Assembly (NCBI GenBank): GCA_013214575.1
Contig: JABSSD010000006.1
Coordinates: 1-42,800, forward strand
Reading direction: 5' to 3'
DNA from: Paracoccaceae bacterium
Lineage (GTDB): Bacteria > Pseudomonadota > Alphaproteobacteria > Rhodobacterales > Rhodobacteraceae
DNA length: 42,800 bases
Shown piece by piece: positions 2,509 through 32,744 of the stretch (position 1 is its first letter; every line of letters starts with the position of its first letter). The position numbers were made by a program, and so were the translations under genes. The notes under the pieces were generated by a model. The model had not been told where the DNA came from. It saw nothing but the letters and a program-made list of their open reading frames with translations, and made no database searches.

Positions 2509-2513
2509 AGGTC

Positions 2514-3512: not shown

Positions 3513-3559
3513 AGGTTTCTCCCTGATCTATCTCAAAACTTGGATCATGCTAAAGTTGG

Positions 3560-3574
3560 TCATAAGGTTTATGA
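3560..3574. promoter_or_regulatory. Inverted repeat upstream of dctP, possible LysR operator
   Basis: TCATA-N5-TATGA is a perfect 5-bp dyad in the 95-nt gap between the LysR gene and dctP, about 48 nt before the dctP ATG. Its size resembles LysR-type boxes, but the exact T-N11-A form is not met, so the assignment is tentative. Confidence 0.35.
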
Positions 3575-3607
3575 AACAGTCTTTTAAGTGTGTATAGAAT
3601 ACATTTT

Positions 3608-8283: not shown

Positions 8284-9702
8284 TCACTCCCAGCCTTTCA
8301 CAAATCCCCGGTCGCCGGCCACCACACCAAGCTGATCCCGCAAGGTCAGGCAGTCTTGCTGGAACTGGCTCAACTGGTGTTTGAGACCTAGGAAGTGCGG
8401 ATCGGTGGCAAAATCAGGCTGCTGTGCCAAGTTGCGCAGCTCTCGGGGATCGGTGCTCAGATCATAGGCCTCATCGCCATTGTCGGGATCCTGAATATAG
8501 ACTTTATCTAGGGTGCGGATCGAATGGGTCAGTGATTTGTGACGCCCCGCCTCGGGCATGCCCGACGGCCAGCTGGTTTTGATAAATCCCTGATAATCAC
8601 CGACCTGGGCGATCACGACCTCCCGTATCGGCTCTGCATGGCCGGATCGCACCCAGCCCAGCAAATCCTTGCCCTGGTTGGTTGGCGGTGCCAGCCCGGC
8701 CATTGCAAGAAGGGTTGGGAACAAATCGACGGTACTGACCAGATCGGATATCCGGCGCGGCTTGGGCTCGTCAGAGTTTTTCGGCGGCACAATGACAAGT
8801 GGGACGTGCAACAGACATTTATAGTGAGACTCTGATTTGTTGAAGAGCCCCTTTTCACCGGTATAGTCGCCGTGGTCCGAGCCGAGGATGATCCAGGTGT
8901 TTTCAAGCAGGCCCTTGTCGTCGAGATATTGATAGATCCGCGCCATTTGATCGTCGATATAGCGGATCATGCCGTAATAGATCGCCAGCACCCGGCAATA
9001 ATCTTCCGGGCTGGCCTGATCCGTCCCCACATCGGAGCGCGCCTTTTTGTGCCAGTCCGGCAAGTCATCCAGATTGCCCAGGTCCGGCAGCGGCAGGCTG
9101 TCTGGATCAAACATTGTGTCATAGGGTTTGGGCACAAAATACGGTGGATGCGGATCGTCGTAGCACATGTGCAAAAAGAACGGCCGTCCGCTGGCCTCGG
9201 CCTGATCCAGCATCCGCAGGGCACGGTCCGTCAGAAGCGCCGAATTGCCATCCTTTGCGTCCACTTCAATGGTGCCTGAGGACCAGGCAACATCCCTGCG
9301 ACCGGACTGGATATGGGCCATCCAGCTGTTGAACAGGGGGCCGCGTTCATGCATCGGCGACTGCTCGTGCCAGCCTCGGCCCAAGTTCCGTTCTGGTTCG
9401 TAATGTCCCGCAGCCGCTGTGTAATATCCCCCGGCAGACAAAACTTCAGCCAATTGCGGTACATTGAACGGGGCCCGGTTTTGGTGACAGGTGACCCCAT
9501 GCACCTGCGGGAACAAGCCGGTATGAACGGAGGCCCGCGACGGGGTGCAAATCGGAGCCGCCGCATAGGCCTGGTCAAACACCCAGCCGTTTCGGGCAAG
9601 GCCATCACAAAACGGCATCGTAATATCTGCATTGCCCATGAAGCTCATGGCCGAGGCTTTGGCCTGATCAAACATCAGGTAGACGATATTGGGCGCTGTC
9701 AT
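8284..9702 (-). CDS. Cytoplasmic S1-type sulfatase, operon with nanA
   Basis: A 472-residue sulfatase of the alkaline-phosphatase superfamily. The formylglycine motif is ICTPSRAS (Cys52, C-x-P-S-R), with an N-terminal metal Asp in LMFDQAK, a DDPHPPYFVP segment and a second metal site GSDHGDYTGEKGLF. It starts MTAPNIVYLMFDQ with no signal peptide, so it should act in the cytosol after formylglycine formation; the maturing enzyme is not in the window. Where family members read GKxH (Lys and His of the sulfate pocket) this protein seems to read GHYE, so its chemistry or substrate may differ. The ATG lies 21 nt after the nanA stop, so the two form one operon. Predicted role: removing sulfate from an imported sialic-acid-type sugar (inference). 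Confidence 0.88.
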   Translation of the reverse strand: MTAPNIVYLMFDQAKASAMSFMGNADITMPFCDGLARNGWVFDQAYAAAPICTPSRASVHTGLFPQVHGVTCHQNRAPFNVPQLAEVLSAGGYYTAAAGHYEPERNLGRGWHEQSPMHERGPLFNSWMAHIQSGRRDVAWSSGTIEVDAKDGNSALLTDRALRMLDQAEASGRPFFLHMCYDDPHPPYFVPKPYDTMFDPDSLPLPDLGNLDDLPDWHKKARSDVGTDQASPEDYCRVLAIYYGMIRYIDDQMARIYQYLDDKGLLENTWIILGSDHGDYTGEKGLFNKSESHYKCLLHVPLVIVPPKNSDEPKPRRISDLVSTVDLFPTLLAMAGLAPPTNQGKDLLGWVRSGHAEPIREVVIAQVGDYQGFIKTSWPSGMPEAGRHKSLTHSIRTLDKVYIQDPDNGDEAYDLSTDPRELRNLAQQPDFATDPHFLGLKHQLSQFQQDCLTLRDQLGVVAGDRGFVKGWE

Positions 9703-9723
9703 GTGCTGGCTCTCGCGTGATTA

Positions 9724-10605
9724 TTAGACCGAAAGGCCGTTGGCATCCATCCAGGCATCCAGCTTGGCCAAGGAGGCGGGGCTGGCGGCACTGAACGGAC
9801 GGCGGCACGGGCCAACCGGAACGCCAAGCCGGTTCAGTGCGTGTTTAAGGCCCGGCAAGACTCCGGTTTCCAGCAGGATTTTGACCAGATCACCGGATTT
9901 GCGCTGCAATTGACGGGCGGTGGCGATATCCCCGGCATTGATCGCTTTTTCAATCCCAACATAGACATCACCGATCAGATTATAGGTGCTGCCAATGCCG
10001 CCGTCGCTGCCCATGGCCGCGGCGCCAAGAAACATCTCGTCGGTGCCAAAATAGAATTTCTTGCCCGGCGCCTGTTGACGCAACTGGGAGAACTGAAACA
10101 GGTCCGTGGCGGTGAACTTCACCCCGGCAATGCGATCATCCTGCATCAGTTCCAACAGTTGCTCGGTGGGAATGTCAGTGCCGCTGAGAGCCGGGATATT
10201 GTAGATGATCAGGGGCAGGCCAGAGGCATCCGCAATGGCTTTGTAATAATCGCTAATGTCGGGAAAGCTGTGCTTGTAGTAGTATGGCGGCACCGCTGAT
10301 ACCGCGTCGTAACCCATCTGGCCTGCCAGTTTCGCCAGCGCGACCGCGTCACAGGTGGCGGCCGTGCCCACATGCGCAATCAGGCTGCAGCGGCCCTTGG
10401 CGACATCCGCAACTTGACGCAGAACCAGCGACCGCTCCTCGACGTTTTGCAGCATCGCTTCACCAGAGCTGCCGCCGACATAAAGACCATGCACACCGCG
10501 CGACAGAATGAAATCAACCAGCGGTGCGATCCCCTCTGGTGCCACTGCGCCGTCGTCACCGAATGGTGTGAGCATAGCCGCGAAGATAGAGCCTGAGATG
10601 TCCAT
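9724..10605 (-). CDS. nanA: N-acetylneuraminate lyase
   Basis: A 293-residue member of the DHDPS/NAL aldolase family that splits sialic acid (Neu5Ac) into N-acetylmannosamine and pyruvate in the cytosol. NanA-specific text is visible: GGSSGEA (44-50), YNIPALSG with the catalytic Tyr at about 135, Schiff-base Lys at about 163 in AGVKFTATDLF, the long GSDGGIGSTYNLIG segment, and ETGVLPGLKHAL plus CRRPF near the end. YNIPALSG and GIGSTYN separate NAL from dihydrodipicolinate synthase. RBS AAGGAAA before the ATG. First gene of a minus-strand operon with a sulfatase, divergent from the GntR regulator gene. The downstream steps, nanK and nanE, lie about 10 kb away in the same locus. Confidence 0.93.
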   Translation of the reverse strand: MDISGSIFAAMLTPFGDDGAVAPEGIAPLVDFILSRGVHGLYVGGSSGEAMLQNVEERSLVLRQVADVAKGRCSLIAHVGTAATCDAVALAKLAGQMGYDAVSAVPPYYYKHSFPDISDYYKAIADASGLPLIIYNIPALSGTDIPTEQLLELMQDDRIAGVKFTATDLFQFSQLRQQAPGKKFYFGTDEMFLGAAAMGSDGGIGSTYNLIGDVYVGIEKAINAGDIATARQLQRKSGDLVKILLETGVLPGLKHALNRLGVPVGPCRRPFSAASPASLAKLDAWMDANGLSV

Positions 10606-10705
10606 GATTGTTTCCTTAGTGTCTGAATTTAGGCGATGTCATCGAAGCGTCTGAAGGGCCGCGACGCGCTGGATTCGGCTAGAGGCCGGGCCCCGATTGA
10701 CTAAG

Positions 10706-10737
10706 GTTTAAGCGAGAAATTGGTTTTTGGTCAACAA
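10706..10737 (-). promoter_or_regulatory. nanA promoter/operator with conserved 19-nt element
   Basis: In the 200-nt gap between nanA and gntR, 10715-10733 (agaaattggtttttggtca on the plus strand) recurs with one change at 22462-22480, upstream of the other nan operon. It overlaps TGGT-CA-ACAA (10728-10737), which fits the TNGT-N2-3-ACNA operator shape common for FadR-type GntR proteins. Read on the minus strand it also gives a -35-like TTGACC (10729-10734) with TTAAAC 17 nt further on. Confidence 0.55.
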
Positions 10738-10805
10738 AAAATAAAAAACTAGACGCCAAAAATGAAATATGCTTACCTAAATTTAATTTGGAGGGTTAAG
10801 CAGAA

Positions 10806-11549
10806 ATGGCAGACGCGACCACAGCAGCAGATATCGCACGTCGCATAGCGGCAGATGTTCATGCGGGAAAATACGCTGCGGGCGAAATGTTGCCCTCTGA
10901 GCGGGTGCTTTGCGAGACATTTGACGTCGGTCGCAATGTTGTCCGCGAAGCCATCACCATTCTTCAGGGAATGGGGCTGGCGGATCAGTCCAAAGGCAAA
11001 CGTCCGCGGGTTCTGGCGCCCACGCTCAGCAATGTGATGGAGGGTGTTGGCCAGGCCGCACAGTTCTTTTTCATGGGCAGCGAGGGCATGGCGCATCTAG
11101 AGCAGGCGCGTCTTTTCCTGGAAACAAGCATGCTGCGCTACACGGTGGTTCATGCGACCAATGCGCAGGTCGCAAAAATGGTCGAGGCGATTGCGCGTTG
11201 CGAGGAAAACGTTGGCGATGTTGAGGGTTTCCGCGACGCCGACGTGCAATTCCACCGCATCCTTGCCGAAGTCCCCGGCAACCCGATTTTCATCGCCCTT
11301 CATGAAACCTTTGTCGGTCGCTTGATGAAAAACCGCCCGGTTCTGGAAGGTTTTGAAAAACTGAACCGTCAAAGCAATGACGAGCACCGTGAGATGGTTT
11401 CAGCCATCCTGGACAAGGACGCAGATCGCGCTGTTGAGATCCTGACACGCCATCTGACACGAAACTTTGGATCATACTTTCGGTTATCGCTCGACAGGAA
11501 ATCGGAGGCGAGCGCGCGCCTGTTTAACACCACAGTGGAGGAACACTAA
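10806..11549 (+). CDS. GntR/FadR-type regulator (NanR-like)
   Basis: A 247-residue protein. The N-terminal GntR winged helix is at about residues 8-70 (MLPSERVLCETFDVGRNVV), followed by an all-helical FCD effector domain with DVQFHRILAEVPGNP and EHREMVSAILDKD, which carry the usual acidic and His metal or effector ligands. RBS GGAGG is 11 nt before the ATG. It heads the operon of SBP, permeases, ATPases and two sulfatases and is divergent from nanA, so it probably controls both in response to sialic acid (inference, by analogy with E. coli NanR). A second, related FCD regulator is at 21613-22326. Confidence 0.9.
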   Translation: MADATTAADIARRIAADVHAGKYAAGEMLPSERVLCETFDVGRNVVREAITILQGMGLADQSKGKRPRVLAPTLSNVMEGVGQAAQFFFMGSEGMAHLEQARLFLETSMLRYTVVHATNAQVAKMVEAIARCEENVGDVEGFRDADVQFHRILAEVPGNPIFIALHETFVGRLMKNRPVLEGFEKLNRQSNDEHREMVSAILDKDADRAVEILTRHLTRNFGSYFRLSLDRKSEASARLFNTTVEEH

Positions 11550-11550
11550 G

Positions 11551-13122
11551 ATGAATAAAGCACTTGGGATTGCACTGGCAGCTGCCTTGCAAATGACAAC
11601 GACCCACGCCTATGCCGACCGGGCCAATCAGCTTTCGGACGAGCGGGTGCGCCAGGCGATCGCCTACGCGATTGATATGGACACCATTGTGGATACGCTT
11701 TTTGAAGGCAAAGCCATTGTTGCGGATTCGATGATCCCCAATGGCGGATTTAAGGCGGACGGGTTGAATGCCTATGGCTATGACCCCGAAAAAGCACGCG
11801 CCCTGCTGAAAGAGGCCGGTTGGGATGAGACACAGGTTCTGGACGTTGTCTATTACTATGGCGACCAGTTGACCGCCGACCTGATGGTGGCCCTGCAGGC
11901 CTACCTTGGTGACGTCGGTGTTCAGATGACCTATCGCAAACTGGAGGGTGACGTTGGTGGCCAGCTCAATGCCCTGCCTGCGTCCGGCACCGACACCAGT
12001 GCCGTCACCTGGGACATCGCCTATGGCGCCAAAGCTGCATTGGCCTTGCAGGAATATTATAACGGCTACCAGACTGGAAAAAGCTCGTACACACCGGGCG
12101 ATGCGGCACGGGACGAGCTGATTGCCCGTATCAATGGCACCAGCAACGTCGAAGAGCAGAAGCTGGCCTTTAAAGACTTTGAGCGCTATGAAAACACCGT
12201 CCTGTCCGACATTCCGCTCTATTATCAGCAGCTGTTCATCTATGAGAGTGACCGCTTAGATCGCAATGGCGGTCAGTATGGCAACGAGCAGTTCAACTAT
12301 GACTGGGGTATCGTAAACTGGACCGCGGAACCCGACGAGACCGGCAAACAGACGCTGTACACCAACACTGCCCCCAGCCAGTTTTTTGAACACCCGTGGT
12401 TGAACCCGGGCGTCTATGTGTTCTCGAAAATCGGCCTAGACCACCTGTTGACCGCCGACGGTTCACTGGCGCCAACAGGCGGGCAACTTGCAGAAAGCTA
12501 TGAGGTTGCAGCCGATGGCCTCTCCGTCAGTTTCGACCTGAAGGATGGGTTGACCTGGCATGACGGTCAGCCGCTCACCGGCGAGGATGTGGTCTGGTCG
12601 ATTGAAACCGCCAAGGGTATCCCGGGCCTCAACCCTGTCTTTGCCAATACCTTTGATGCCATTTCGGACATCTCAACAGATGGCGATGTGATCAATATCT
12701 CCTTTGCCAAGCTTGATCCGAACATGCTTTTGACCTTTAGCCAGTTTGCGCCGCTTCCCAAGCACCTGCTTGAGGGCGTGAACCCGGTTGAATTCCAGCA
12801 GCACCCCTTCTGGCAGAACCCGGTTGGCTCTGGTCCCTTCAAAATCGAAGAAGTGCAAATGAACGACTATGTTCGCTTTGTGCCCTTTGCCGACTACCAT
12901 GGCGGTGTTGCAAAGGTCGAAGAGATCGTCGCCTTCCCAAGTGGTGAAAACGACGGCAACATCATCAAGAACGCAACCGCCGGCCGGCTTGACTTTGGCT
13001 TTACCAAATCGGTGGCCGATGTGCAGTCGCTGGAGGAAATGGAGCATATGCGGGTGATCCCGGCCGACATTCCCTACACACGGTCGCTGCGGATCAACAA
13101 GTTCGCCAATATTTCTGAATGA
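11551..13122 (+). CDS. Dipeptide/sialate-type ABC SBP (SBP_bac_5) with swapped halves
   Basis: A 523-residue secreted protein with signal peptide MNKALGIALAAALQMTTTHAYA. The mature part begins at once with LSDERVRQAIAYAIDMDTIV (29-48) and YDPEKARALLKEAGW. In SBP_bac_5 proteins those belong to the second half. At about residue 265 it continues with TLYTNTAPSQFFEHPWLNPG, LAESYEVAADGLSVSF (313-328), TWHDGQPLTGEDV, LPKHLL and GSGPFKI (426-432), which are normally the first half. The chain ends RSLRINKFANISE, exactly where canonical proteins run on into RVRQAIAYAID. The gene therefore encodes an apparent circular permutation. The start is set by GGAGG, 9 nt before the ATG. The adjacent nan genes suggest a sialic-acid ligand, as in the Haemophilus SatABCD importer. 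Confidence 0.88.
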   Translation: MNKALGIALAAALQMTTTHAYADRANQLSDERVRQAIAYAIDMDTIVDTLFEGKAIVADSMIPNGGFKADGLNAYGYDPEKARALLKEAGWDETQVLDVVYYYGDQLTADLMVALQAYLGDVGVQMTYRKLEGDVGGQLNALPASGTDTSAVTWDIAYGAKAALALQEYYNGYQTGKSSYTPGDAARDELIARINGTSNVEEQKLAFKDFERYENTVLSDIPLYYQQLFIYESDRLDRNGGQYGNEQFNYDWGIVNWTAEPDETGKQTLYTNTAPSQFFEHPWLNPGVYVFSKIGLDHLLTADGSLAPTGGQLAESYEVAADGLSVSFDLKDGLTWHDGQPLTGEDVVWSIETAKGIPGLNPVFANTFDAISDISTDGDVINISFAKLDPNMLLTFSQFAPLPKHLLEGVNPVEFQQHPFWQNPVGSGPFKIEEVQMNDYVRFVPFADYHGGVAKVEEIVAFPSGENDGNIIKNATAGRLDFGFTKSVADVQSLEEMEHMRVIPADIPYTRSLRINKFANISE

Positions 13123-13139
13123 TCTCCCCACCTGAAAAC

Positions 13140-13163
13140 GATGCGGGCCTTGCGGCCCGCATC
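13140..13163 (+). other. GC-rich stem-loop between SBP and permease genes
   Basis: A perfect 10-bp stem (GATGCGGGCC / GGCCCGCATC) with a TTGC loop, 17 nt after the SBP stop, is followed by C-rich sequence without a U-tract. It probably protects the SBP mRNA 3' end or attenuates readthrough, so that SBP exceeds permease; it is not a full terminator. Confidence 0.65.
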
Positions 13164-13204
13164 CCCCACAGCCGCTTGGCCCGATCCGCCTAAGGACCCC
13201 CGAC

Positions 13205-14164
13205 ATGCTGACGTTCATCATCCGCCGTCTGCTCATCGTGATACCGATGTTGCTGGTCATTAGTTTTTTGGTCTACCTCGGCCTTGAATTGACCCCGGGC
13301 GACGCGGTTTCGCATATGATTGACCCGGAAGCCGCCAGCCAGATGAGCCCGGCGCAATTCGAAGCCCTGCGCGAGGCATTGGGGCTGAACAAATCCTTCC
13401 TTGAGCGCTACGCCACATGGGTCTATAATATGCTGCACGGGGATTTTGGCCGCTCCCTGTCCGGCGGCGTCCCCATCTCAGAGATTTTCCTTGACCGGCT
13501 GCCCGCCACCCTGGAGCTGTCGTTTCTGGCGCTGCTGTTCTCGACCGTCATTGGCTGCAGTCTGGGCACCATTTCCGCCCTGAAACGCGGCACAGCAACC
13601 GATAGCAGCCTGACGGTGATCGGCATGCTTGGGGTCTCCATTCCTGAGTTTTTCTTTGGCCTTGTCTCCATTCTGATCTTTGCCCTGCATCTGCGCTGGC
13701 TGCCTGTGGGCGGTCGCCTGATGCCGGGCTATGAGACTTTTCTGGACCGGGCGCCGCATATCATCCTGCCGGCTCTGGTGCTGTCGTTGATGATGACCGC
13801 GGGCGTTATGCGCTACTCGCGCGCCGCCATGCTGGACTCTCTCAGTCGCGAATTCATTCGCACCGCGCGGTCCAAGGGTCTGCCCGAGTGGCGGATTAAT
13901 TTCGTACATGGTTTTCGCGTCGCCCTGACCCCGGTTGTGGTGCTGATTGGTTTTCGCCTGCCCACCCTGATCGGTGGCTCGGTGATCATCGAAGAGGTGT
14001 TTCAATGGCCCGGCATCGGCAGCGAGTTTATCGGTGCGGTGCGGGGCGCGGATTATCCCCTGGTGATGATGATCGCGCTGTTCTCGGTCTTTGCTGTGCT
14101 GATGGCCAGCCTGATCGTTGATGTGCTGACGGCCATTATTGACCCGCGCGTCCGTCTGAGCTGA
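13205..14164 (+). CDS. Dipeptide-type ABC transporter permease (DppB family)
   Basis: A 319-residue inner-membrane permease with the family's N-terminal start MLTFIIRRLLIVIPMLLVIS and about six helices. The periplasmic loop is rich in LREALGLNKSFLERYATWVYNMLHGDFGRS, a DppB hallmark, and the cytoplasmic EAA region reads FIRTARSKGLPEWRINFVHGFR. It pairs with the DppC-type subunit encoded 17 nt downstream. Operon context (nan genes, sulfatases) suggests that the cargo is a sialic-acid-type sugar rather than a peptide. Confidence 0.94.
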   Translation: MLTFIIRRLLIVIPMLLVISFLVYLGLELTPGDAVSHMIDPEAASQMSPAQFEALREALGLNKSFLERYATWVYNMLHGDFGRSLSGGVPISEIFLDRLPATLELSFLALLFSTVIGCSLGTISALKRGTATDSSLTVIGMLGVSIPEFFFGLVSILIFALHLRWLPVGGRLMPGYETFLDRAPHIILPALVLSLMMTAGVMRYSRAAMLDSLSREFIRTARSKGLPEWRINFVHGFRVALTPVVVLIGFRLPTLIGGSVIIEEVFQWPGIGSEFIGAVRGADYPLVMMIALFSVFAVLMASLIVDVLTAIIDPRVRLS

Positions 14165-14181
14165 ATGAAAAGGAGAGACCG

Positions 14182-15096
14182 TTGGCAAATTCCGCTCTGA
14201 ACCGAAAATTTGACCGCATCCGGGCGCTGGAGGAGGCAGGCGAACTGAAGCCTCTGACCGGCAGCCGGGCGCTGCGTAAGATGATGAATAACCGCCTGGC
14301 GATGGTCGGCGTGGTTATTTTTCTGATCATCCTGCTGTCCGCTATTTTTGCGCCGCTGCTGACCGCCCATAGTCCGACGAAAATCGACCTGCGGTCGATG
14401 TTGCAATCGCCATCAGGCGAGCATTGGTTCGGCACCGACAAAACCGGGCGGGATGTCTTTGCCCGGGTTCTTTACGGCGGCCGGGTGTCCATTCTGGTTG
14501 GCCTTGGCAGTGCGCTTCTTGCGGCGCTGATCGGCGTCGGTGTTGGCTGTTACACCGGGTACAAAGGCGGCATCCTGGATGTGATCGCATTGCGGGTCTC
14601 CGAGATATTCATGTCCTTCCCGCAGATTATTCTTGTGTTGCTGCTGGTCTCAATTGCCGGGCAAAGCCTGGCCAATCTGATCGTGATTTTTGTGCTGACC
14701 GGTTGGGGCGGCATGTACCGTCTGGCTAGGGCGCGCATGCTGTCGCTCAGGGAAGAGGAATATGTGCAGGCGCTGCGCAGCTTTGGCATTTCGACGCCGA
14801 TGATTTGCTACAAACATATCCTGCCCAATGCCCTGGGGCCGATCATGGTCAATATCACACTGACCACGGCGATGTTCATTCTGGCCGAGGCCGGGCTTAG
14901 TTTTCTGGGTCTGGGGGTGCCGCTGAACATCCCGACATGGGGCAATATTCTGAACGTCGCAAAAGATCTGCGGGTGCTGCAGAACAACTGGTGGATGTGG
15001 TTGCCGGTGGGCATGGTCATATCGCTGTTTGTTCTGAGTGTGAACTTCATTGGGGATGGGCTTCGGGATTCCACCGACCCCTCTCAGCAAGGGTAA
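14182..15096 (+). CDS. Dipeptide-type ABC transporter permease (DppC family)
   Basis: A 304-residue permease starting at TTG, set by a strong AGGAGA 6 nt upstream; no nearby in-frame ATG fits as well. The cytoplasmic N-tail LKPLTGSRALRKMMNNRLAM and then the first helix are DppC-typical. HWFGTDKTGRDVFARVLYGGRVS is the conserved DppC signature. The EAA loop reads EYVQALRSFGISTPMICYKHILPN. Forms the channel with the DppB-type subunit. Stop codon 4 nt before the next ATG. Confidence 0.94.
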   Translation: MANSALNRKFDRIRALEEAGELKPLTGSRALRKMMNNRLAMVGVVIFLIILLSAIFAPLLTAHSPTKIDLRSMLQSPSGEHWFGTDKTGRDVFARVLYGGRVSILVGLGSALLAALIGVGVGCYTGYKGGILDVIALRVSEIFMSFPQIILVLLLVSIAGQSLANLIVIFVLTGWGGMYRLARARMLSLREEEYVQALRSFGISTPMICYKHILPNALGPIMVNITLTTAMFILAEAGLSFLGLGVPLNIPTWGNILNVAKDLRVLQNNWWMWLPVGMVISLFVLSVNFIGDGLRDSTDPSQQG

Positions 15097-15100
15097 GACA

Positions 15101-16105
15101 ATGACAGGTGAAGTTGCGCTGAGCGTCAAGAATTTGAAGACGTTCTTTTACACCAACAACCGCTGCAACAAGGCGGTGAATGGGGTCTCTTTTGACATCA
15201 AAAAGGGCCGCACCCTCTGCGTCGTTGGCGAAAGCGGCTGCGGCAAATCTGTGACCGCCTCGACCATCATGCAATTGCTGCCCAGCCTGTCCCGGATTGA
15301 GGAGGGCTCCATCACCTATCACGCGGAGGCGGGCGATATCCGGATTGATCAGCTGGACCGTGACGGCAAGGAGATGCGGCGTATTCGCGGGTCTGAAATC
15401 GCGATGATCTTTCAGGATCCGATGACGGCGCTCAACCCGGTCTATACCATTGGCTTTCAAATTGGTGAGAGTTTGAAATACCACACGGATCTGTCGGCCA
15501 AGGCGCGCCACGCCAAGGTTGTCGACCTGCTGGCCAACATGGGCATTCCAGAGCCTGAAAGGCGCGCCAAAGAGTATCCTCATAAATATTCCGGGGGCAT
15601 GCGGCAACGGGCGCTGATTGCCATGGCGATGTCCTGCAATCCAAAAATCCTGATTGCAGACGAGCCGACAACCGCATTGGATGTCACCATCCAGGCCCAG
15701 ATTTTCCGCCTTATGGACGAGCTGAAAGAGCAGCACGGCACCGCCATCATGCTGATCACCCATGACATGGGGGTGGTCGCGGAATTGGCTGACGAAGTTA
15801 TCGTCATGTATATGGGCAATATCGTCGAAGCCGGAACCGTGGATGATATTCTGCGCCGCCCAAAGCACCCCTATACCCGGGCCTTGCTTGACTCGATCCC
15901 GGTGCTGGGACGGGGTCGCAATCAGGACATCAAGTCCATTCGCGGCGCCACCCCAGACCCTTACCAGCGTCCCAAAGGCTGCCAGTTTTCCCCCCGGTGC
16001 GACTTTGCCACCGAGACCTGCAGCGCCATGCCGGACGAAGAGTACATCACAGAGACCCATCGGGTCTCCTGTCATCACTACAAGGACATTTCGCAACATG
16101 ACTGA
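15101..16105 (+). CDS. ABC transporter ATP-binding protein (DppD family)
   Basis: A 334-residue ATPase: Walker A GESGCGKS (about 43-50), Q-loop [14 protein letters not shown] signature [15 protein letters not shown], Walker [13 protein letters not shown], switch His in LITHDMG. The C-terminal oligopeptide-type extension carries the Cys cluster [14 protein letters not shown]. The ATG follows the permease stop by 4 nt. One of two ATPases energising this importer. Confidence 0.94.
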
Positions 16106-17123
16106 GAGCCGGGACGTTATTCTTCAGCTGCGCGATTTGAAAACCTATTTTGCCTTGCGCCAGGGTGTTTTCCAACGGGTCACCGGCTTTGTCAAAGCGG
16201 TGGACGGGATCAATCTGGACATCTACCGGGGCGAGGTGCTGGGACTGGTCGGAGAGAGCGGTTGCGGCAAGACCACTTTGGGTAAATCCATCCTGCAACT
16301 GATCCGACCCACCGCCGGGGAAATCACCTATCACGGTGCCGACGGGACTGACGGGGCGGTGGACATGTGCTGTCTCAGTGACGCCGAAATGGTGGCCTAC
16401 CGCAAAAAGCTGCAGATCGTATTTCAGGACCCGCATTCCTCGCTGAACCCGGCTTTTACGATATTTGGCTCGTTGCAGGATCCGCTCAAGAAATACGGGG
16501 TGAAATCCAAGAAAGAGCGCCGCAAGATCATTGGCGATCTGCTGGAGGCGGTTAACCTTCAGCGCGACTACATGGACCGCTATCCGCATGAGTTTTCCGG
16601 TGGCCAGCGACAGAGGATCGGCATTGCCCGCGCCCTCAGCGTCGAGCCCGAACTGATTGTTTGCGACGAGGCGGTGAGCGCCCTGGACGTGTCGATACAG
16701 GCACAGGTTCTGCAACTGCTGATGGACCTGAAGAAAAAGCGCAACCTCACCTATATCTTCATCACCCACGACCTGAGCGTCACCGAATATATCTGCGACC
16801 GGATTGCGGTGATGTACCTGGGCCGCATTGTCGAACTGGCCCATACTGAAGATCTGTATGAGCATCGGCTGCACCCCTACACTCAGGCTCTGTTGTCGTC
16901 GATTCCGGTGGCGGATCTGGATCGAAAAACCAAGCGGATTGTGCTTGAAGGCGACGTGCCCAGTCCGATCAATCCGCCCTCAGGTTGCCCCTTTCATCCG
17001 CGCTGCCGGTTTGCCAAGGATATCTGCTCCACTGAGGTACCGGCTCTGCGCAAAGTGGTGACCGGCGGCAAGGAACACCATGTCTCGTGCCATTTGGTAG
17101 ACGATACGGTCACCGCCGCATGA
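16098..17123 (+). CDS. ABC transporter ATP-binding protein (DppF family)
   Basis: A 341-residue ATPase whose ATG overlaps the preceding gene by 8 nt. Walker A GESGCGKTT (about 52-60), Q-loop FQDPHSSLNPAFT, signature FSGGQRQRIGIARAL, Walker B LIVCDEAVSALD, switch His FITHDLS, and the C-terminal Cys cluster CPFHPRCRFAKDIC. Its stop overlaps the next sulfatase start (ATGA), so transport and desulfation are co-translated. The equivalent frame upstream of 16098 is only the shadow of dppD. Confidence 0.94.
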   Translation: MTESRDVILQLRDLKTYFALRQGVFQRVTGFVKAVDGINLDIYRGEVLGLVGESGCGKTTLGKSILQLIRPTAGEITYHGADGTDGAVDMCCLSDAEMVAYRKKLQIVFQDPHSSLNPAFTIFGSLQDPLKKYGVKSKKERRKIIGDLLEAVNLQRDYMDRYPHEFSGGQRQRIGIARALSVEPELIVCDEAVSALDVSIQAQVLQLLMDLKKKRNLTYIFITHDLSVTEYICDRIAVMYLGRIVELAHTEDLYEHRLHPYTQALLSSIPVADLDRKTKRIVLEGDVPSPINPPSGCPFHPRCRFAKDICSTEVPALRKVVTGGKEHHVSCHLVDDTVTAA

Positions 17124-18580
17124 AAAACCTGCTGTTCATTGGCGTTGACCAACTGCGCTGGGATGTCGTTGGGCCCAATAAATGCCAACCGGTTGCCACC
17201 CCAAATCTGGATAGGCTGATCAAAAACGGGGTGTCGTTTGAACGGACCTACGCCACCAGCCCGCTGTGCACCCCGTCACGTGGCTCGATGTTTACCGGCG
17301 ACTATGCCTTCAGTCACGGCATGGGCACCAACTGCGACATGTACCATGCGCTTGGAACCGAGCTGCGCAACCCGGATCAACTGCTCCATAAGGATCTGAT
17401 GGCGGCCGGGTACCGCTGCGGATTTGTTGGAAAATGGCATGTGGGAGTGGCAAAAACACCGGGCGACTATGGCTTTGAGGGCGAGGTTGCGGCGGGCTAT
17501 GGCAATTTGACCACAACCAAAGCCTTCAAGGCACATCTGGAAAAACAGGGGCTGTCCTACAGTGTTGAGCCAACATTGTTTTTCAACCCGGACCAGCAAA
17601 CGATGGCCGGCGGCCGCTGGAAGGGTCCGGTCCAGTCAACGCCCTGCCATTTTCAAACCCAGCAGATCATTGCGATGCTGCAAGATCTGTCCGCCACCGA
17701 GGCGCCGTTTTTTGCCACCGTGCAATATTGGGATCCCCATGGCCCGCATCTGGTGTCAGACGAATTTTACGGTTCGACCGATCGTGACAAGATCAAACCC
17801 TGGGCAAATTTCAACGACGACCTGAAGACAAAACCAGCGCGGGTCAAGCGGGAGCGCGATGATTTCTATCGACTACACCCGCGCCATGTGGACGAATTGG
17901 TTGAATATATCGGCCTCTATTGTGATCACGTGGCGATGCTGGATCATGAGATCGGTCGGTTGATGGCCTCTCTGGAAAGCCAGGGCTTGATCGAGGATAC
18001 ACTGATTGTATTCACCTCCGATCACGGCGATATGACCGGAGCCCACGGTGGGCTGATCGACAAGGGCCTGCTCTATGAGGAGGCCATGCGGGTGCCGATG
18101 GTGTTTAGCCATCCAGACCTAAAGCCGGGAACGCGCCGCGGATTGGCGCTGAATATGGACATCCTGCCAACGGCTCTTGGCCTCATGGGCATTGAATTCA
18201 CCCCGCGCCAGGCCGAGGATCTGACCCCCTTGGTCCGGGATGCGCGCCGCCAGGGCCGCAAGTTTTTACTGGCCGAATACCACGGTCTGCGGTTTCTCTA
18301 TTCGCAGCGCATGCTGGTCTCTGATGACGGATGGAAGTTTATATTTTCACCCGGCGACTATGACGAACTCTATGATCTGAACGCAGATCCAGATGAGCTG
18401 ACAAACCTCGCAGACAGCAACGAGCATGCAGAGGTTCTGGCCAGAATGCGCGCAGCACTGATGGCGCAAACAGCGAATTACAACGACCCTCTGCGCGACT
18501 GCGTGTCGAAATTCAACGGCCAGTGGCGCACCACCTCGGGTCAGTTTGATGCCACCAGCGCCTATCTGTCAGACACTTGA
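17120..18580 (+). CDS. Cytoplasmic S1-type sulfatase in the transporter operon
   Basis: A 486-residue sulfatase. N-terminal metal Asp in MKNLLFIGVDQLRWD, formylglycine motif LCTPSRGS (Cys50), complete sulfate-pocket motif GKWHVG, DPHGPH segment and distal metal site TSDHGDMTGAHGG. There is no signal peptide, so it is cytosolic. The ATG lies inside the stop of the DppF-type ATPase gene, a strong sign that it acts on what the importer brings in. It resembles the next gene in layout but differs clearly in sequence, so the two probably cleave different sulfate positions or sugars (inference). Confidence 0.92.
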   Translation: MKNLLFIGVDQLRWDVVGPNKCQPVATPNLDRLIKNGVSFERTYATSPLCTPSRGSMFTGDYAFSHGMGTNCDMYHALGTELRNPDQLLHKDLMAAGYRCGFVGKWHVGVAKTPGDYGFEGEVAAGYGNLTTTKAFKAHLEKQGLSYSVEPTLFFNPDQQTMAGGRWKGPVQSTPCHFQTQQIIAMLQDLSATEAPFFATVQYWDPHGPHLVSDEFYGSTDRDKIKPWANFNDDLKTKPARVKRERDDFYRLHPRHVDELVEYIGLYCDHVAMLDHEIGRLMASLESQGLIEDTLIVFTSDHGDMTGAHGGLIDKGLLYEEAMRVPMVFSHPDLKPGTRRGLALNMDILPTALGLMGIEFTPRQAEDLTPLVRDARRQGRKFLLAEYHGLRFLYSQRMLVSDDGWKFIFSPGDYDELYDLNADPDELTNLADSNEHAEVLARMRAALMAQTANYNDPLRDCVSKFNGQWRTTSGQFDATSAYLSDT

Positions 18581-18588
18581 GGTCCCAT

Positions 18589-20013
18589 ATGACGCCGCAC
18601 CGTCCAAACGTACTTTTGATAATAACGGACCAGCAGCGGCCGGACACATTGGGGTTTCGCGGCCAAACGCCGTGCAGGACGCCCAATATCGACAGCCTGG
18701 CTGCCGAAGGTGTGTCGTTTGACCGGGCCATAACCCCCTGCCCGCTGTGCCTTCCGTCGCGCGCCTCGATGTTTACCGGCCTCTATCCAACCCAGAATGA
18801 CATGATGTCAAACCAGACCGGTTATTTGCGCTCCTGCGAGATGCTCGATCATTTTCGCGGCGAAGGCTACCAGATCAATTACGCCGGCAAGTGGCATATG
18901 GGCGAAGGCAATATCGCTGATTTCACCGATCGCCATGCGGGCGACAGCACCGGGGTCTACAGCCAATGGTGTCTGGATCAGGGGCTGATTGACGGATGGA
19001 TGTTCAACGACCCGGCAACCCGCACCACCCGCGAGCCGTCAATGTCGATCCCCAAGGTCATTTGTCAGGATCTGCCGGTCGATAAGACAAACGAAGCCTA
19101 TGTGACCGATTTTGCCATCGACATGATCCGAACCCGTGACAAATCGAAACCGTTCTTTCAGGTCTGCTCCTACAACGGGCCGCATCCGCCGTTCATGATC
19201 CCAGAGCCCTATTTCAGCATGTACGCCCCTAGGGATGTTGCCATCCCGCCCAACTTTGGGCCGCAGGCGGATGAACATGAGGTCAATCAAACCAGCTATT
19301 ATCGCGATCTGTTCCTTGATCATGGCGAAGATTTTGACGCCTGGCGCGCCAGCTATGCGGTCTATTGGGGCTTTGTCACCCTGATCGACGATATGGTCGG
19401 CCGGGTGCTTGCTGCGGTCAAGGAGGAGGGGCTGATGGAGGACACCATCATTGTGTTCACCTCAGACCACGGCGAAAATCTGGGCGCCCACGGCTTGTGG
19501 CAGAAAATGGTGCCTTACGGCGAATCCATTTGTGTGCCTTTGGTGATCCGGGTGCCGGGCCGGCAGGGTTTGACGCAGACCCCCAAGCAGACCAATGTGC
19601 CGGCCAGCCTGATTGATATCGCCCCGACGCTGGCCGCCCTTTGTGGCTTGCCCGAAAGGCCGGGCTGGATGGGCGGCAACCTGTTTGCCAGGGATTGGAC
19701 GCTTGAAGGTGAGCCGCCGGTCTTTGCCATGCATCAGCCAATTGGTGATTGGATGAAAGTCACCGATTGGCGCATGATTGAACGGGATCGGTTTAAATAT
19801 GTTTGGTATCGGGGCAAGACGGGCGAGTTATTCGATCTTGGTGCCGATCCGGGCGAGCTTGGCAATCTTATTGACGCGCCAGAGTGTCAGCCCCGTCTTT
19901 TGGAGCTCAAACAACAGCTTGGCGCATTTATGGCGGCGACGGATGACCCCCTGCTGGCCGATTTCCAACGGGAGGTTAATGCCGCCGGGCAGGCAGGCCC
20001 AGACCGGTGCTGA
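18589..20013 (+). CDS. Cytoplasmic S1-type sulfatase, last gene of transporter operon
   Basis: A 474-residue sulfatase: NVLLIITDQQRPDTLG (metal Asp), formylglycine motif LCLPSRAS (Cys54), GKWHMG pocket, NGPHPPFMIPEPY, distal metal site TSDHGENLGAHGL. No signal peptide. The ATG at 18589 has GAGG 6 nt upstream; an in-frame TTG at 18577 overlaps the preceding gene and is less likely. It ends 9 nt from the convergent nanK stop. Third sulfatase of the locus. Confidence 0.92.
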   Translation: MTPHRPNVLLIITDQQRPDTLGFRGQTPCRTPNIDSLAAEGVSFDRAITPCPLCLPSRASMFTGLYPTQNDMMSNQTGYLRSCEMLDHFRGEGYQINYAGKWHMGEGNIADFTDRHAGDSTGVYSQWCLDQGLIDGWMFNDPATRTTREPSMSIPKVICQDLPVDKTNEAYVTDFAIDMIRTRDKSKPFFQVCSYNGPHPPFMIPEPYFSMYAPRDVAIPPNFGPQADEHEVNQTSYYRDLFLDHGEDFDAWRASYAVYWGFVTLIDDMVGRVLAAVKEEGLMEDTIIVFTSDHGENLGAHGLWQKMVPYGESICVPLVIRVPGRQGLTQTPKQTNVPASLIDIAPTLAALCGLPERPGWMGGNLFARDWTLEGEPPVFAMHQPIGDWMKVTDWRMIERDRFKYVWYRGKTGELFDLGADPGELGNLIDAPECQPRLLELKQQLGAFMAATDDPLLADFQREVNAAGQAGPDRC

Positions 20014-20022
20014 CGTTCTCAG

Positions 20023-20922
20023 TCACCGGTCAATAAGCACCCCGAGCAGCGCCGAATTTGCGCCCAGTTCAACCGGCACGATTTCTGGCTGAAACAGCCT
20101 CGGCTCGCATGACAGTGCCTGTCGGACCAGATCGATATAGCCCTGTGCGGTGCCAATGCTGCCGCCCAGCACGATCCGCTCCAGATCAAGAAGCGACTTC
20201 AGGTTCGCGCTGAGTTCAGCCACAACCGAGGCGGATTGCTCGATCAGGGTGCTGGCCCAACCTGCCCCGGCAAGATGCGCCTCAAACACCGCCCTGGCGT
20301 CCAGACCCGGATGACCCAGTGCGGCGGCCTGCGCCGCGATGGCGCGGCCCGACGCCACACTTTCGACGGTCTGTCTGCGACCACTGCCACAGGTGCCGCT
20401 ACTCACCCGGGTGGTGGTAAACCCCATGTGACCCGCCAGCCCCGAGTCTGATATCAGCGGCCGACCGTTCAGAATAATGCCACCGCCAACCCCGGTTGAG
20501 ACAGTGACAAAAGCCATGTTGCGGCTGCCCCGCCCGGCGCCAAAGGCATATTCCCCCAAGGCGGCGGCAATGGCATCGTTTTGCACCGTGACCCGCCGGC
20601 CCAGCTGGTCCGACAGAATCTCCTGCAACGGCACCGAGACCACCTGGCTCAGGGTGTCCGTGTTGACCGCAAACCAGTCGCCATCGCGACTAACCCGCCC
20701 CGACAATGCAACCCCGACCGCTTCATCCGCCCGCAGCTGCAGACCTGCAAGCAGATCGCCAATGGCGGCAATTTGCTCCGCCACGCTGGCGTCGCCATCC
20801 GTTTGCATCCTTTCGCTCTCAATGATCCGGCCGTGCTCAAGTCTGGCGGCAGCGATCTTGGTGCCGCCAAAATCGACGGCCACACCGCTGGGCAAAACAG
20901 GATCTGGATTTAGCGACCTCAT
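20023..20922 (-). CDS. nanK: N-acetylmannosamine kinase (ROK family)
   Basis: A 299-residue ROK sugar kinase predicted to phosphorylate ManNAc, the NanA product. VAVDFGGTKIAAARL is the phosphate loop, VQNDAIAAALGE holds the catalytic Asp, and STGVGGGIILNG and GLAGHMGF match the family. The C-terminal IVLGGSIGTAQGYIDLV closely parallels E. coli NanK. The usual ROK zinc motif (CxCGxxGCxE) is altered to TCGSGRRQTVE: one Cys is left and two residues are added, so structural zinc is probably absent. ATG one base after the nanE stop. Convergent with the sulfatase gene. Confidence 0.88.
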   Translation of the reverse strand: MRSLNPDPVLPSGVAVDFGGTKIAAARLEHGRIIESERMQTDGDASVAEQIAAIGDLLAGLQLRADEAVGVALSGRVSRDGDWFAVNTDTLSQVVSVPLQEILSDQLGRRVTVQNDAIAAALGEYAFGAGRGSRNMAFVTVSTGVGGGIILNGRPLISDSGLAGHMGFTTTRVSSGTCGSGRRQTVESVASGRAIAAQAAALGHPGLDARAVFEAHLAGAGWASTLIEQSASVVAELSANLKSLLDLERIVLGGSIGTAQGYIDLVRQALSCEPRLFQPEIVPVELGANSALLGVLIDR

Positions 20923-20923
20923 G

Positions 20924-21595
20924 TCATGCCTCTTTCACCGCTGAGGCAAACCAATCGGTAATATGTTCCACCCGGGTCACCGCGCTGCCAACAGTGACGC
21001 AATCGGCCCCGGCCTTCATCGCCTGCGCCGCCAGTTCGGGCGCGTTGAAGCGGCCCTCGGCCATAACAAAGGCGCCCAACTGGCTGAGCGATTGAACAAA
21101 GGTGAAGTCCGGACCGGTTCCCGCCGGCGCGATGTCATAGGCATATCCGGATAGGGTGCTGCCCAGAATGTCAGCCCCTTCGGCCAATGCCGTTTTGGCG
21201 TCACCCAGGGTTGCGCAATCGGCCATTGCCAATTTGCCCTGCGCCTTGATCGCCCTGACCAGATCAGCGGTGGTCACCGGGCGGGCGCGTTGGGTGGCGT
21301 CATAGGCGATGATATCAGCCCCCATTGCGGCCAGATCGGCAACATCCTTCAGATAGGGCGTGATCCGGACCTCGCTGCCCGCAAGGTTGCGCTTAACAAT
21401 CCCGATGATCGGCAATTTGGTCTTTGTGCGCACCGCTTTCAGGTTTGCCGTGCCTTCTATGCGCAAGCCACCCGCGCCGCCGGCCTCAGCCGCCAGGGCC
21501 ATCGCCGCAACGATTGAGGGCGCATCCATCGGGCCGTTATCAACCGGCTGGCACGACACCACCAGCGCCCCTTTGAGTTGGTTTAAAACAGTCAT
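20924..21595 (-). CDS. nanE: N-acetylmannosamine-6-phosphate 2-epimerase
   Basis: A 223-residue TIM-barrel enzyme of the NanE family that converts ManNAc-6-P to GlcNAc-6-P. Family text: LKGALVVSCQPVDNGPM at the start, IIGIVKRN with the catalytic-region Lys (about 68), ADIIAYDATQRARP, GADILGSTLSGY, VMAEGRFNAPE (Glu) and GADCVTVGSAVTRVEHIT near the end. Length is normal. Second gene of the gntR-nanE-nanK operon, 17 nt after the regulator. The next enzymes, NagA and NagB, are not in the window. Confidence 0.93.
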   Translation of the reverse strand: MTVLNQLKGALVVSCQPVDNGPMDAPSIVAAMALAAEAGGAGGLRIEGTANLKAVRTKTKLPIIGIVKRNLAGSEVRITPYLKDVADLAAMGADIIAYDATQRARPVTTADLVRAIKAQGKLAMADCATLGDAKTALAEGADILGSTLSGYAYDIAPAGTGPDFTFVQSLSQLGAFVMAEGRFNAPELAAQAMKAGADCVTVGSAVTRVEHITDWFASAVKEA

Positions 21596-21612
21596 AATTG
21601 GCTCATTTATTG

Positions 21613-22326
21613 TTATTTCAGTGCGACGACACCGGGTTTCGACAGCCCTGCCCGAAAGGATCTGGCAAGATGGGTATCCATCACCGCCATCGCCCGCTGC
21701 GGGTCATTTTCAGCAATCGCCTCATATATCTGACGGTGTTCCTCGTAGCTGACCTGATTGCGCTCAAGTTGATTTTCAGCGGTGGGCCGGCTTGCCACCA
21801 GCCGGTAAACAAACCGATCATGCAGTTCGAGGATGATCGGGTTCTGCACCACGGATACGATTGCCCGGTGAAACGCGGCATCGGCTTTGCCAAAGGCAAT
21901 ATCATCCTTCAATGCGGCAAACCCCTGTTCCAAAGCCGCGTGAATATGCGCCACTTGCAGGTTTGTTGCGTCCTGTGCGGCGCTGCGAACCGCGCCAACT
22001 TCGATAAACTGGCGCACCTGTTCCAGATAGGCGTGGCTGTTTGTACGGCCCAAAAGATCCTGAAGGTTCTCGCCGGTGGTCTGGAATATACTGCTGATCG
22101 ACGGCTTCATGGCCCGCGGGCGCTTGGAGGTCTCGAGGCTGGCAAACCCGCGCGCTTGCATTTTCACCAGCGCCGCCCGGATGGTTGGTCGCGAGGTTGC
22201 AAACCGTTCACACAACTGGCGTTCTGGCGGCAACGCAGTGCCGTATTCAATGCTGCCATTTCTGATTTCATCAATCAAAGCCTCTGCAACAGTGTCTGCT
22301 GTCGGCCGTGGGTTGTTGATGTCCAC
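21613..22326 (-). CDS. GntR/FadR-type regulator of nanE-nanK
   Basis: A 237-residue protein starting at GTG with GGGGGAG 8 nt upstream. GntR winged helix at about residues 8-70 (ALPPERQLCERFATSRPTI). FCD domain with DAAFHRAIVSVVQNPI and EHRQIYEAIAENDPQRA. It is a diverged paralog of the regulator at 10806 (HLEQARLFLE versus YLEQVRQFIE, shared ATNxQVA). First gene of an operon with nanE and nanK, so it probably autoregulates and responds to a sialic-acid-derived ligand (inference). Confidence 0.9.
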   Translation of the reverse strand: MDINNPRPTADTVAEALIDEIRNGSIEYGTALPPERQLCERFATSRPTIRAALVKMQARGFASLETSKRPRAMKPSISSIFQTTGENLQDLLGRTNSHAYLEQVRQFIEVGAVRSAAQDATNLQVAHIHAALEQGFAALKDDIAFGKADAAFHRAIVSVVQNPIILELHDRFVYRLVASRPTAENQLERNQVSYEEHRQIYEAIAENDPQRAMAVMDTHLARSFRAGLSKPGVVALK

Positions 22327-22358: not shown

Positions 22359-22480
22359 ATTGGTTAATCCAAATGAGACTTTCGGTCAACGTAAACCGGA
22401 AACTTCCAATCCACACGGCATTCCATGCCCTGCCACACCCATGCATCACAGATCCGCTGTCAGAAATTGATTTTTGGTCA
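22359..22480 (-). promoter_or_regulatory. Promoter/operator region of gntR-nanE-nanK
   Basis: Holds three candidate sites. The first is 22462-22480 (agaaattgatttttggtca), identical in 18 of 19 positions to 10715-10733 at nanA and in the same orientation relative to its operon. The second is GGTCAAC at 22384-22390, which on the minus strand gives a TTGACC -35-like box. The third is the small dyad TTGG-N5-CCAA at 22360-22372, at the place expected for -10 or an operator about 35 nt before the GTG. Confidence 0.5.
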
Positions 22481-22506
22481 GTCCAAAGCCCGCCTATCTG
22501 ATGACG

Positions 22507-23289
22507 TCAGTCAATCCGGACAATCTTTCTCAGGGCATCGGTCATGCGGCCGTTATCTGCCAGCACCCGGCTGCCCTGGGACAGAAAATCTTCGAGTCCG
22601 TCGACATCATACCGGCCGCCCGCTTCGCTCAGGATCAGCAGGGCCGCAAAAGCATCCCAGGCATTTAGGTGGGCCTCGTAATAGGCCTCGGCCTGGCCCC
22701 TTGCCACCGCCAGCAAGCCGGCAGCGGCGGCGCCGTTGCGGCGGTATTCGCTGCCGCTGGTGATGGTGCGTTCTATCAGTGTCAAATAATCGGCCAGCGG
22801 CGCCCGTGCGGATCGGCCCAGCATCAGGATTGACTGTTCAATCTGGTCAACCTCGGACACTGTGATCCGCTGATCGTTCAGGAAAGCGCCCTGTCCCTTT
22901 TGCGCCCATGCCAGACAGTTGCTGTCGGGCAGCGCCAGAACGCCAAGCTGGATCTCGCCTGCACTGCACCAGGCAATCGACACCGCCCAATCCGCAAACC
23001 CGTGCATATAATTGGTGGTGCCATCAATTGGATCCACCACCCAGATATCGCCACCCTCGCCCGTCCGGCCATCTTCTTCGCCCAAAAAGGCCTCGTCTCC
23101 GAACCGCGCGGCGATCCTGTTGCGAATCAGTTTCTCAACTTCACAATCCGCAAAGGTCACGAAGTCCTGTATGCCTTTGCTCTGCACAAAATCATCTGAT
23201 TTGTTCTGCCGCAGCGCCAGCGCCAGTGCTGCCGCCTCGGATGCCAGGTCCTTGGTGAATTCAAGCCTTTCGGCGATGTCATACCCCAT
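22507..23289 (-). CDS. Inositol monophosphatase family protein
   Basis: A 260-residue Mg-dependent sugar-phosphatase fold. The metal-binding motifs are intact: GEE at about 70-72, WVVDPIDGTTNYMHG (Asp86, Asp89) and WDAFAALLILSEAGG near the C-terminus. Cytoplasmic. Families with these motifs hydrolyse inositol-1-phosphate, histidinol phosphate, PAP or related esters; length and motif spacing fit inositol-phosphatase-like members. The ATG overlaps the LacI stop by 11 nt, so it is the last gene of the operon led by the SBP gene at 29017-30369. Together with the GDPD it may dephosphorylate the product of glycerophosphodiester cleavage (inference). Confidence 0.9.
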   Translation of the reverse strand: MGYDIAERLEFTKDLASEAAALALALRQNKSDDFVQSKGIQDFVTFADCEVEKLIRNRIAARFGDEAFLGEEDGRTGEGGDIWVVDPIDGTTNYMHGFADWAVSIAWCSAGEIQLGVLALPDSNCLAWAQKGQGAFLNDQRITVSEVDQIEQSILMLGRSARAPLADYLTLIERTITSGSEYRRNGAAAAGLLAVARGQAEAYYEAHLNAWDAFAALLILSEAGGRYDVDGLEDFLSQGSRVLADNGRMTDALRKIVRID

Positions 23290-27624: not shown

Positions 27625-27634
27625 ATCAGGGCCC

Positions 27635-28951: not shown

Positions 28952-28972
28952 AGGGGACTCCGAAGCGGTAAA

Positions 28973-29000: not shown

Positions 29001-29016
29001 CAAAGTCAGGCAGGGT

Positions 29017-32726: not shown

Positions 32727-32744
32727 ATTGCCCCTCAATGCTTG

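Follow-up and report, generated by a model that had tools for sequence, protein, structure and literature searches.

What kind of substrate is used by a bacterial locus that combines genes for sialic acid breakdown with a peptide-class importer and three sulfatase genes? This question is raised by a stretch of 42,800 nucleotides from Paracoccaceae bacterium (assembly GCA_013214575.1, contig JABSSD010000006.1, positions 1 to 42,800), which is called the window here, and by the 13 genes located at its positions 8284-22326. A first-pass annotation made from the sequence had proposed sulfated sialic acid as substrate. When we followed up this proposal by computational analysis, we found that the locus probably serves the regulated catabolism of sulfated sialic acids, from which the sulfate would be removed in the cytosol. 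The following observations are among those in favour of this reading: the sialate genes and the sulfatase genes stay linked in seven further loci, the sulfatases lack signal peptides and the gene runs share a palindrome at their promoters.

Gene organization and the sialate enzymes

Profile searches of the window frames assigned all 13 genes and from their spacing three runs were inferred. The first run points leftward and consists of nanA (9724-10605, minus strand), which codes for a predicted N-acetylneuraminate lyase, and the co-oriented sulfatase gene sulfA (8284-9702, minus strand) with 21 bases between them. The second run reads rightward on the plus strand and comprises the regulator gene gntR1 (10806-11549), the gene of a solute-binding protein (SBP, 11551-13122), two permeases, two ATPases and the sulfatase genes sulfB (17120-18580) and sulfC (18589-20013). 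Here, the sulfB start overlaps the stop of the second ATPase by 4 bases and sulfC starts 8 bases past sulfB. The third run, again on the minus strand, involves gntR2 (21613-22326), nanE (20924-21595) and nanK (20023-20922) with gaps of 17 and 1 bases. Gene content, order and strands are as the first-pass annotation had implied, and the two couplings it had pointed out (one sulfatase gene with nanA, another at the ATPase stop) are borne out.

For the window, the sialate reading is founded on the nanA, nanE and nanK genes that it carries itself. NanA scored 324 bits with NF003164 (cut-off 281) and 285 bits with TIGR00683 (cut-off 382), and its best match in the PDB were the structures of E. coli NanA (E 1.7e-71). 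Its GTDE and GGIGSTYN motifs align with GYDE and GGIGSTYN of the E. coli enzyme, so that the Asp-Glu and S-T-Y-N residues are retained, as expected from the sialate catabolism that had been annotated. These residues, which we take to hold the glycerol side chain of sialic acid, are conserved in all 14 members of the clade described below except for one D-for-E change (L017). Scores and residues rule out that nanA codes for DapA or for a 2-keto-3-deoxygluconate aldolase. NanE, the N-acetylmannosamine-6-phosphate 2-epimerase, scored 286 bits with NF002231 (cut-off 189). NanK is a ROK-family sugar kinase (PF00480, 166 bits) with N-acetylmannosamine kinase as best match, under the cut-offs of both families (NF003461, 230 against 283 bits; second family, 211 against 450 bits). 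Both regulators are of the GntR/FCD type (PF07729 FCD in gntR1) and NanR is their best match, with NF003011 scores of 199 (gntR1) and 173 bits (gntR2) under the cut-off of 260. Matches to nagA (TIGR00221, 110124-111197) and nagB (PF01182, 111353-112009), both above cut-off, are adjacent to each other on another contig of the same genome (C139).

The three sulfatases and their activation

The products of sulfA (472 amino acids), sulfB (486 amino acids from the ATG at 17120) and sulfC are S1-type (formylglycine) sulfatases with PF00884 scores of 163.7, 159.5 and 163.2 bits, respectively. Their maturation motifs read CTPSR, CTPSR and CLPSR. All three carry the D-Q, P-H and D-H positions, and the usual G-K-W-H motif is present in sulfB and sulfC. 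We take the D-Q, G-K-x-H, P-H, D-H and K positions to be the metal-ligand and catalytic residues of S1 sulfatases. A structure model of sulfA was poor (predicted local distance difference test, pLDDT, 49.2 with 7 sequences) and was not used.

The absence of signal peptides from all three enzymes, as claimed by the first-pass annotation, agrees with the hydropathy of their N-termini, which was judged by a simple scan rather than by SignalP. In the first 45 residues, the highest 12-residue Kyte-Doolittle mean was 0.63-0.86 for the sulfatases as against 1.91 for the SBP, which has a signal peptide. The five N-termini that were read among the 10 other sulfatase matches of this genome gave values of about 2.2 (three enzymes, which look exported) and 1.4-1.6 (two enzymes) over the first 60 residues. 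Secretion of the locus enzymes is ruled out by N-termini that have no strongly hydrophobic segment.

The genome contains 13 PF00884 matches, 12 of them above cut-off, and three belong to the locus. Genes of the formylglycine-generating enzyme (FGE) type are encoded elsewhere in the genome (PF03781 on contig C130, 239 bits). In Thalassovita autumnalis (L013), an FGE gene, which serves sulfatase activation, overlaps sulfA by 4 bases.

Importer and circularly permuted binding protein

The importer consists of the SBP, permease B (DppB class, 13205-14164, PF00528 and PF19300), permease C (DppC class, 14182-15096, PF00528 and PF12911), ATPase D (DppD class, 15101-16105, PF00005 and PF08352) and ATPase F (DppF class, 16098-17123), which matched the dipeptide ATP-binding cassette (ABC) ATPase family NF008453 with 372.6 bits, under its cut-off of 408. 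The SBP belongs to family 5 (Dpp/Opp/Sat class, PF00496), but its chain order is unusual. Residues 24-258 match the C-terminal half of DppA (1dpe, 272-507), and residues 256-511 match residues 3-246 of SatA (5z99) as well as the N-terminal halves of NikZ, AppA, CtaP and others. It can be seen that the half equivalent to the N-terminal half of SatA comes last in the chain, and judged from these alignments the SBP has the Dpp/SatA fold in circularly permuted form. An AlphaFold2 model of the native chain had a pLDDT of 89.7.

An assembly artefact is ruled out as cause of the permutation since 46 of the 49 loci that we found in a genome scan match across residues 30-515 or more. These permuted-SBP loci come from alpha-, gamma- and delta-proteobacteria, Spirochaetes, Firmicutes and a KSB3 bacterium. 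Together with the window, L073, L089 and L090 they add up to 53 loci, 51 of which have an SBP frame above 300 bits (L052 is cut and L057 is distant); L088, from genome G206, was not counted separately from L014.

The first-pass annotation had compared the importer with Haemophilus SatABCD. The peptide class stood up but the SatA architecture did not: the HdSatA structures (5z99, 5yyb, 5za4) have the ordinary chain order, and this difference rules out a plain SatABCD system. Because of the permutation, the likeness to SatA is one of class and not of architecture. The fold also gives no ligand, since SatA does not stand out among the family-5 structure matches; NikZ, AppA, CtaP and DppA match the SBP as well as or better. 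For SatA itself, a His-Ser pair and an Arg bind Neu5Ac according to the accessible part of a review (PMC10017367). Among the papers listed by our literature searches on circularly permuted solute-binding proteins (20 of 49 in one case), there was none on such a family-5 protein, and the nearest of those listed, as far as its accessible text goes, deals with a glucose-binding protein of divergent topology (PMC4990184). A naturally permuted binding protein that is conserved across phyla is a structural oddity.

In a Spirochaete locus (L030, 15553-20842), the permuted SBP is accompanied by an S1 sulfatase (18340-19872), a second sulfatase-like stretch that is cut, an FAD oxidoreductase and a lyase from which the NanA residues are missing. 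This locus is perhaps an independent version for a sulfated substrate.

Conservation of the gene set

The sulfA-nanA/gntR-SBP arrangement recurs in seven other alphaproteobacterial loci (L009-L013, L032 and, from genome G184, L073), where the sulfA orthologues share 72-76% identity. Six of these loci are among the 49 of the scan, and L011 ends at a contig end. Rhizobiales and Ahrensia bins are among their sources. Including the window, sulfA is paired with nanA in all eight loci and is the constant member among the sulfatases. Because the linkage recurs in seven further loci, the association of these genes exceeds chance. Among 394 genomes of the family, sulfA was found in two (the genome of the window and G184), both of which hold the importer; scans at the level of the order and of the phylum gave 2 of 390 (the same two) and 1 of 398 genomes (that of the window). 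Thus, the expected conservation of the gene set was found in seven other loci and did not extend to roseobacters at large.

To place the sulfatase loci among their relatives, we used a tree of 49 SBPs, from which L048 (broken frame) and L050 (partial) were left out and in which L054, L051 and L049 sit on long branches. The eight sulfatase loci form, together with the sulfatase-free L014, a nine-row group with support of 93/96, which is just under the star mark of the tool. This group is nested in a clade of 14 rows (100/100), every member of which has the nanA/gntR/SBP core. Since the six other members of the clade (L014-L018 and L043) have this core and no sulfatase of the set in the flank covered (L016 is cut after the permeases), the sulfatases look added. 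These data suggest that they joined an older sialate importer, and a loss in L014 is possible. The genes that occupy the slot after the ATPases in relatives favour the sialate reading. In L014, they are two Gfo/Idh/MocA oxidoreductases followed by nanE, nanK, nagB and nagA. In L013, the slot (15699-18883) codes for NanM, an alpha/beta-hydrolase esterase and a GFA-family protein, together with what is left of a broken sulfC. Sequence set A2 comprised 21 sequences. In L012, sulfB crosses undetermined bases.

A gene for a PF04116 membrane hydroxylase adjoins sulfC in L010 (18485-19477) and, by likeness to L010, in L012 (about 12554-13397). Carriage of the system on plasmids found no support: in 72,556 plasmid records, among which those of this genome may be absent, the only match of sulfA was a distant one with 29% identity (limit 1e-30), and for the SBP there was no match at a limit of 1e-60.

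Palindrome and signs of shared control

The divergent promoter between nanA-sulfA and gntR1-importer-sulfB-sulfC contains a palindrome of the TTTTGGTCAACCAAAA type. The copy present in the window, TTTTGGTCAACAAAAA (10725-10740, plus strand), differs from it by 1 mismatch. The count of this operator-like site covered 22 sequences, namely those of the 14 clade loci, seven more and L077, which is a contig of the window genome. At the divergent promoter, 13 of the 14 clade loci (all but L015) carry TTTTGGTCAACCAAAA itself or a version that deviates from it by 3 mismatches at most, and TTTTGGTCGACCAAAA or a near copy precedes the gntR1 homologue in all seven of the more distant loci that were read. 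At up to 3 mismatches, the window contains 5 matches as against 0.25 expected, two of them being one site on both strands. Two weaker sites with 3 mismatches each (22380-22395 and 22472-22487, plus strand) lie in the 180-base gap upstream of gntR2-nanE-nanK, for which a Poisson probability of about 6e-7 was calculated with the gap chosen after the pattern was known. Another copy (32739-32754, minus strand, 3 mismatches) is located outside the locus between two divergent genes. The signs of shared control that the first-pass annotation had made a test of its proposal are present in this palindrome, which supports joint regulation of nan and sulfatase genes but does not prove it.

A PhyH-type dioxygenase as probable partner

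Just past sulfA, a gene for a PhyH-type dioxygenase and a divergent AraC-type regulator gene are present in L009, L010, L012, L032 and L073; in L013 they lie past the FGE gene. These six are all of the sulfA loci outside the window whose contigs reach far enough. The window shows neither of the two partners. They were found in the same genome on a contig of 4,657 bases (C183, L077) with the PhyH gene at 2354-3127 (minus strand) and the AraC-type regulator gene at 3115-4035 (plus strand). In the 394 family genomes, PhyH occurs in four (G000, G165, G184, G366) and the permuted SBP in five (these four and G206). The probability of this overlap is 5e-9, or 4e-7 without the genome of the window, when genomes are treated as independent, which kinship makes inexact. 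PhyH-like genes were counted in 16 of the 53 loci. These include six loci from Devosia, three that are delta-proteobacterial or proteobacterial, and L043 from a Bugula symbiont, where the gene is found beside nanA. The distribution of PhyH, which is present in L043, Devosia and other permuted-SBP loci, thus follows the importer and not the sulfatases. It seems that this dioxygenase is part of the system although its gene is not in the window, and one may guess that it removes an O-methyl or another group by oxidation.

Near PhyH, a gene that by sight codes for a fusion of an aldo/keto reductase with a RidA-like part is found in L009 (2368-3843) and L032 (3440-4936).

Neighbouring genes

To the right of the locus (22507-30369), the window contains a leftward cluster that includes an inositol-monophosphatase-family protein and, by sight, a LacI-type regulator, a glycerophosphodiesterase-like protein and a sugar ABC importer.

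Discussion

For the proposed unit, we consider the following sequence of events probable. The permuted Dpp-class SBP in the periplasm and the ABC importer would take up free sialic acid that still bears its sulfate. In the cytosol, FGE-activated S1 sulfatases would strip the sulfate, with sulfA as core enzyme and sulfB and sulfC for other positions or forms. NanA would cleave the desulfated sugar to N-acetylmannosamine and pyruvate, NanK and NanE would convert the former to GlcNAc-6-phosphate, and NagA and NagB, which are encoded elsewhere in the genome, would feed glycolysis. The NanR-like regulators would switch on the units jointly at TTTTGGTC-ACCAAAA sites, and the PhyH dioxygenase may take off a further decoration. 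Desulfation most likely precedes the lyase reaction, since the residues that presumably bind the glycerol side chain, a known site of sulfation, are retained in NanA.

Several findings weigh against this scheme. In sulfA, the G-K-x-H place reads G-H-Y-E-P, so that the His is kept and the Lys is gone in all eight copies read; because of this missing Lys, the pocket or the chemistry of the enzyme could differ. Three sulfatases exceed the need of the 8-O- and 9-O-sulfates that have been described. No gene of the locus codes for a sialidase, and no search for one was made in the rest of the genome. When up to 2 mismatches are allowed, the palindrome is genome-wide no commoner than its backward control (4 against 5), and it was not found at the PhyH/AraC pair on C183. 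A single gain of the sulfatases appeared in 16% of the bootstrap trees, so that the tree neither shows nor rules out one gain. In L073, an internal part of sulfB is missing and its reading frame is broken, and in L013 other genes stand in the place of sulfB and sulfC apart from the broken sulfC. Among permuted-SBP loci, some of them on short contigs, a NanA-like lyase was detected, at the limits applied, in 39 of 51 and nanE or nanK in 16 of 51. The stretch covered of Devosia L034 (1647-19027) combines the importer with a NanA-like lyase, PhyH, an M81 (MlrC-like) peptidase and other genes that have no obvious sialate role, and it contains neither nanE nor nanK; this locus may serve another substrate. 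Because of this gene content and of the loci in which no lyase or no nanE/nanK was detected, importers of this family may in some cases transport something other than sialic acid.

Three other explanations were weighed. The sulfatases might act on sulfated amino sugars (sulfo-GlcNAc, sulfo-GalNAc, sulfo-ManNAc) or on short sialylated, sulfated oligosaccharides that are imported beside sialic acid. The locus would then deal with sulfated sialoglycans, and none of its enzymes would be a sialate sulfatase. The best solved-structure match of sulfB and sulfC is indeed the exo-2S-iota-carrageenan sulfatase, GlcNAc-6-sulfatase is also among the matches, and the Smon0123 importer is, by the accessible text on it (PMC5430744), an earlier example of an ABC system that takes up sulfated disaccharides containing amino sugars. 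However, none of the 13 locus genes codes for a glycosidase able to split an imported oligosaccharide, and the pairing of sulfA with nanA in every locus also speaks against this explanation, which we consider unlikely. It is improbable that the enzymes are not sulfatases but formylglycine phosphodiesterases or phosphonate monoesterases, which would take a phospho group off imported nonulosonates. Such a function would suit the missing Lys of sulfA and the phosphonate monoester hydrolases among the PDB matches of all three enzymes, but sulfB and sulfC keep G-K-W-H and match sugar sulfatases best, and the scores for the PF01663 phosphodiesterase family are below those for PF00884 in all three cases.

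In a third scenario, the bacterium would use plain sialic acid and the sulfatases would be co-transcribed bystanders that scavenge sulfate from unrelated esters. The close relatives that keep the core with no sulfatase in the flank covered are in line with this idea, as is the loss of sulfB or sulfC in some loci. On the other hand, the linkage has been kept over several families at about 68-76% identity and in runs sharing one palindrome, and both family genomes with sulfA bear the importer; we attach little probability to bystanders. Import of a sulfated sialic acid and its desulfation in the cytosol remain the explanation that we prefer. Its most far-reaching form is more tentative and we are somewhat more doubtful than confident about it: this would be the first pathway by which bacteria use sialic acids that are sulfated and probably carry other decorations as well, with several position-specific cytosolic sialate O-sulfatases (sulfA would found a new active-site variant), a sialate importer of a new class whose SBP is naturally permuted and a PhyH Fe/2-oxoglutarate dioxygenase that removes or oxidizes a further decoration before the lyase acts.

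Substrates of this kind exist in nature. In their accessible parts, PMC9630641 and PMC9304399 both report 8-O-sulfated sialic acids from sea urchins and refer to 9-O-sulfated Neu5Gc in the eggs of these animals. PMC9304399 also reports the 8-O-sulfated form from vertebrates and calls sulfated sialic acids ubiquitous there. As far as its accessible text goes, the 2023 review mentioned above (PMC10017367) states that no microbial sulfatase acting on sulfated sialic acid is known. The papers listed by our literature searches on sialate sulfatases and on sialic acid use by roseobacters included no described sialate sulfatase and no description of this gene set, in agreement with the first-pass annotation, which knew of no such pathway. 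The locus names three concrete candidates for sialate sulfatases together with an importer and regulators, and therefore the open question becomes a set of simple assays. If the proposal is true, such enzymes would also serve to detect sulfate on sialic acid or to remove it. The tight co-occurrence with the PhyH dioxygenase points to an undescribed step.

Comparison with known systems

The locus shares the lyase, a NanK-like kinase, the epimerase and FCD regulators with the Nan pathway (NanA/NanK/NanE, NanR), and nagA and nagB matches are present in the genome. It differs from this pathway by its two NanR-like regulators, the three built-in sulfatases predicted to be cytosolic and the partner PhyH dioxygenase. 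With S1 formylglycine sulfatases such as the exo-2S-iota-carrageenan sulfatase (6pt4), choline-sulfatase (7oz8) and 4upi/4upl, the locus enzymes have C-x-P-S-R, D-Q, P-H and D-H in common; G-K-W-H is also found in sulfB and sulfC, and in sulfA its Lys is absent. In contrast to those enzymes, they are distant in sequence, apparently cytosolic and linked to nan genes. SatABCD (SAT/ST3) of Haemophilus ducreyi is, like the system described here, a peptide-class ABC importer with a family-5 SBP, but the chain order of SatA is ordinary and that of the locus SBP is permuted. Finally, the Smon0123 ABC importer, as presented in the accessible part of PMC5430744, likewise imports a sugar acid that is still sulfated, as we propose here, but its substrates are different, namely sulfated and non-sulfated glycosaminoglycan disaccharides.

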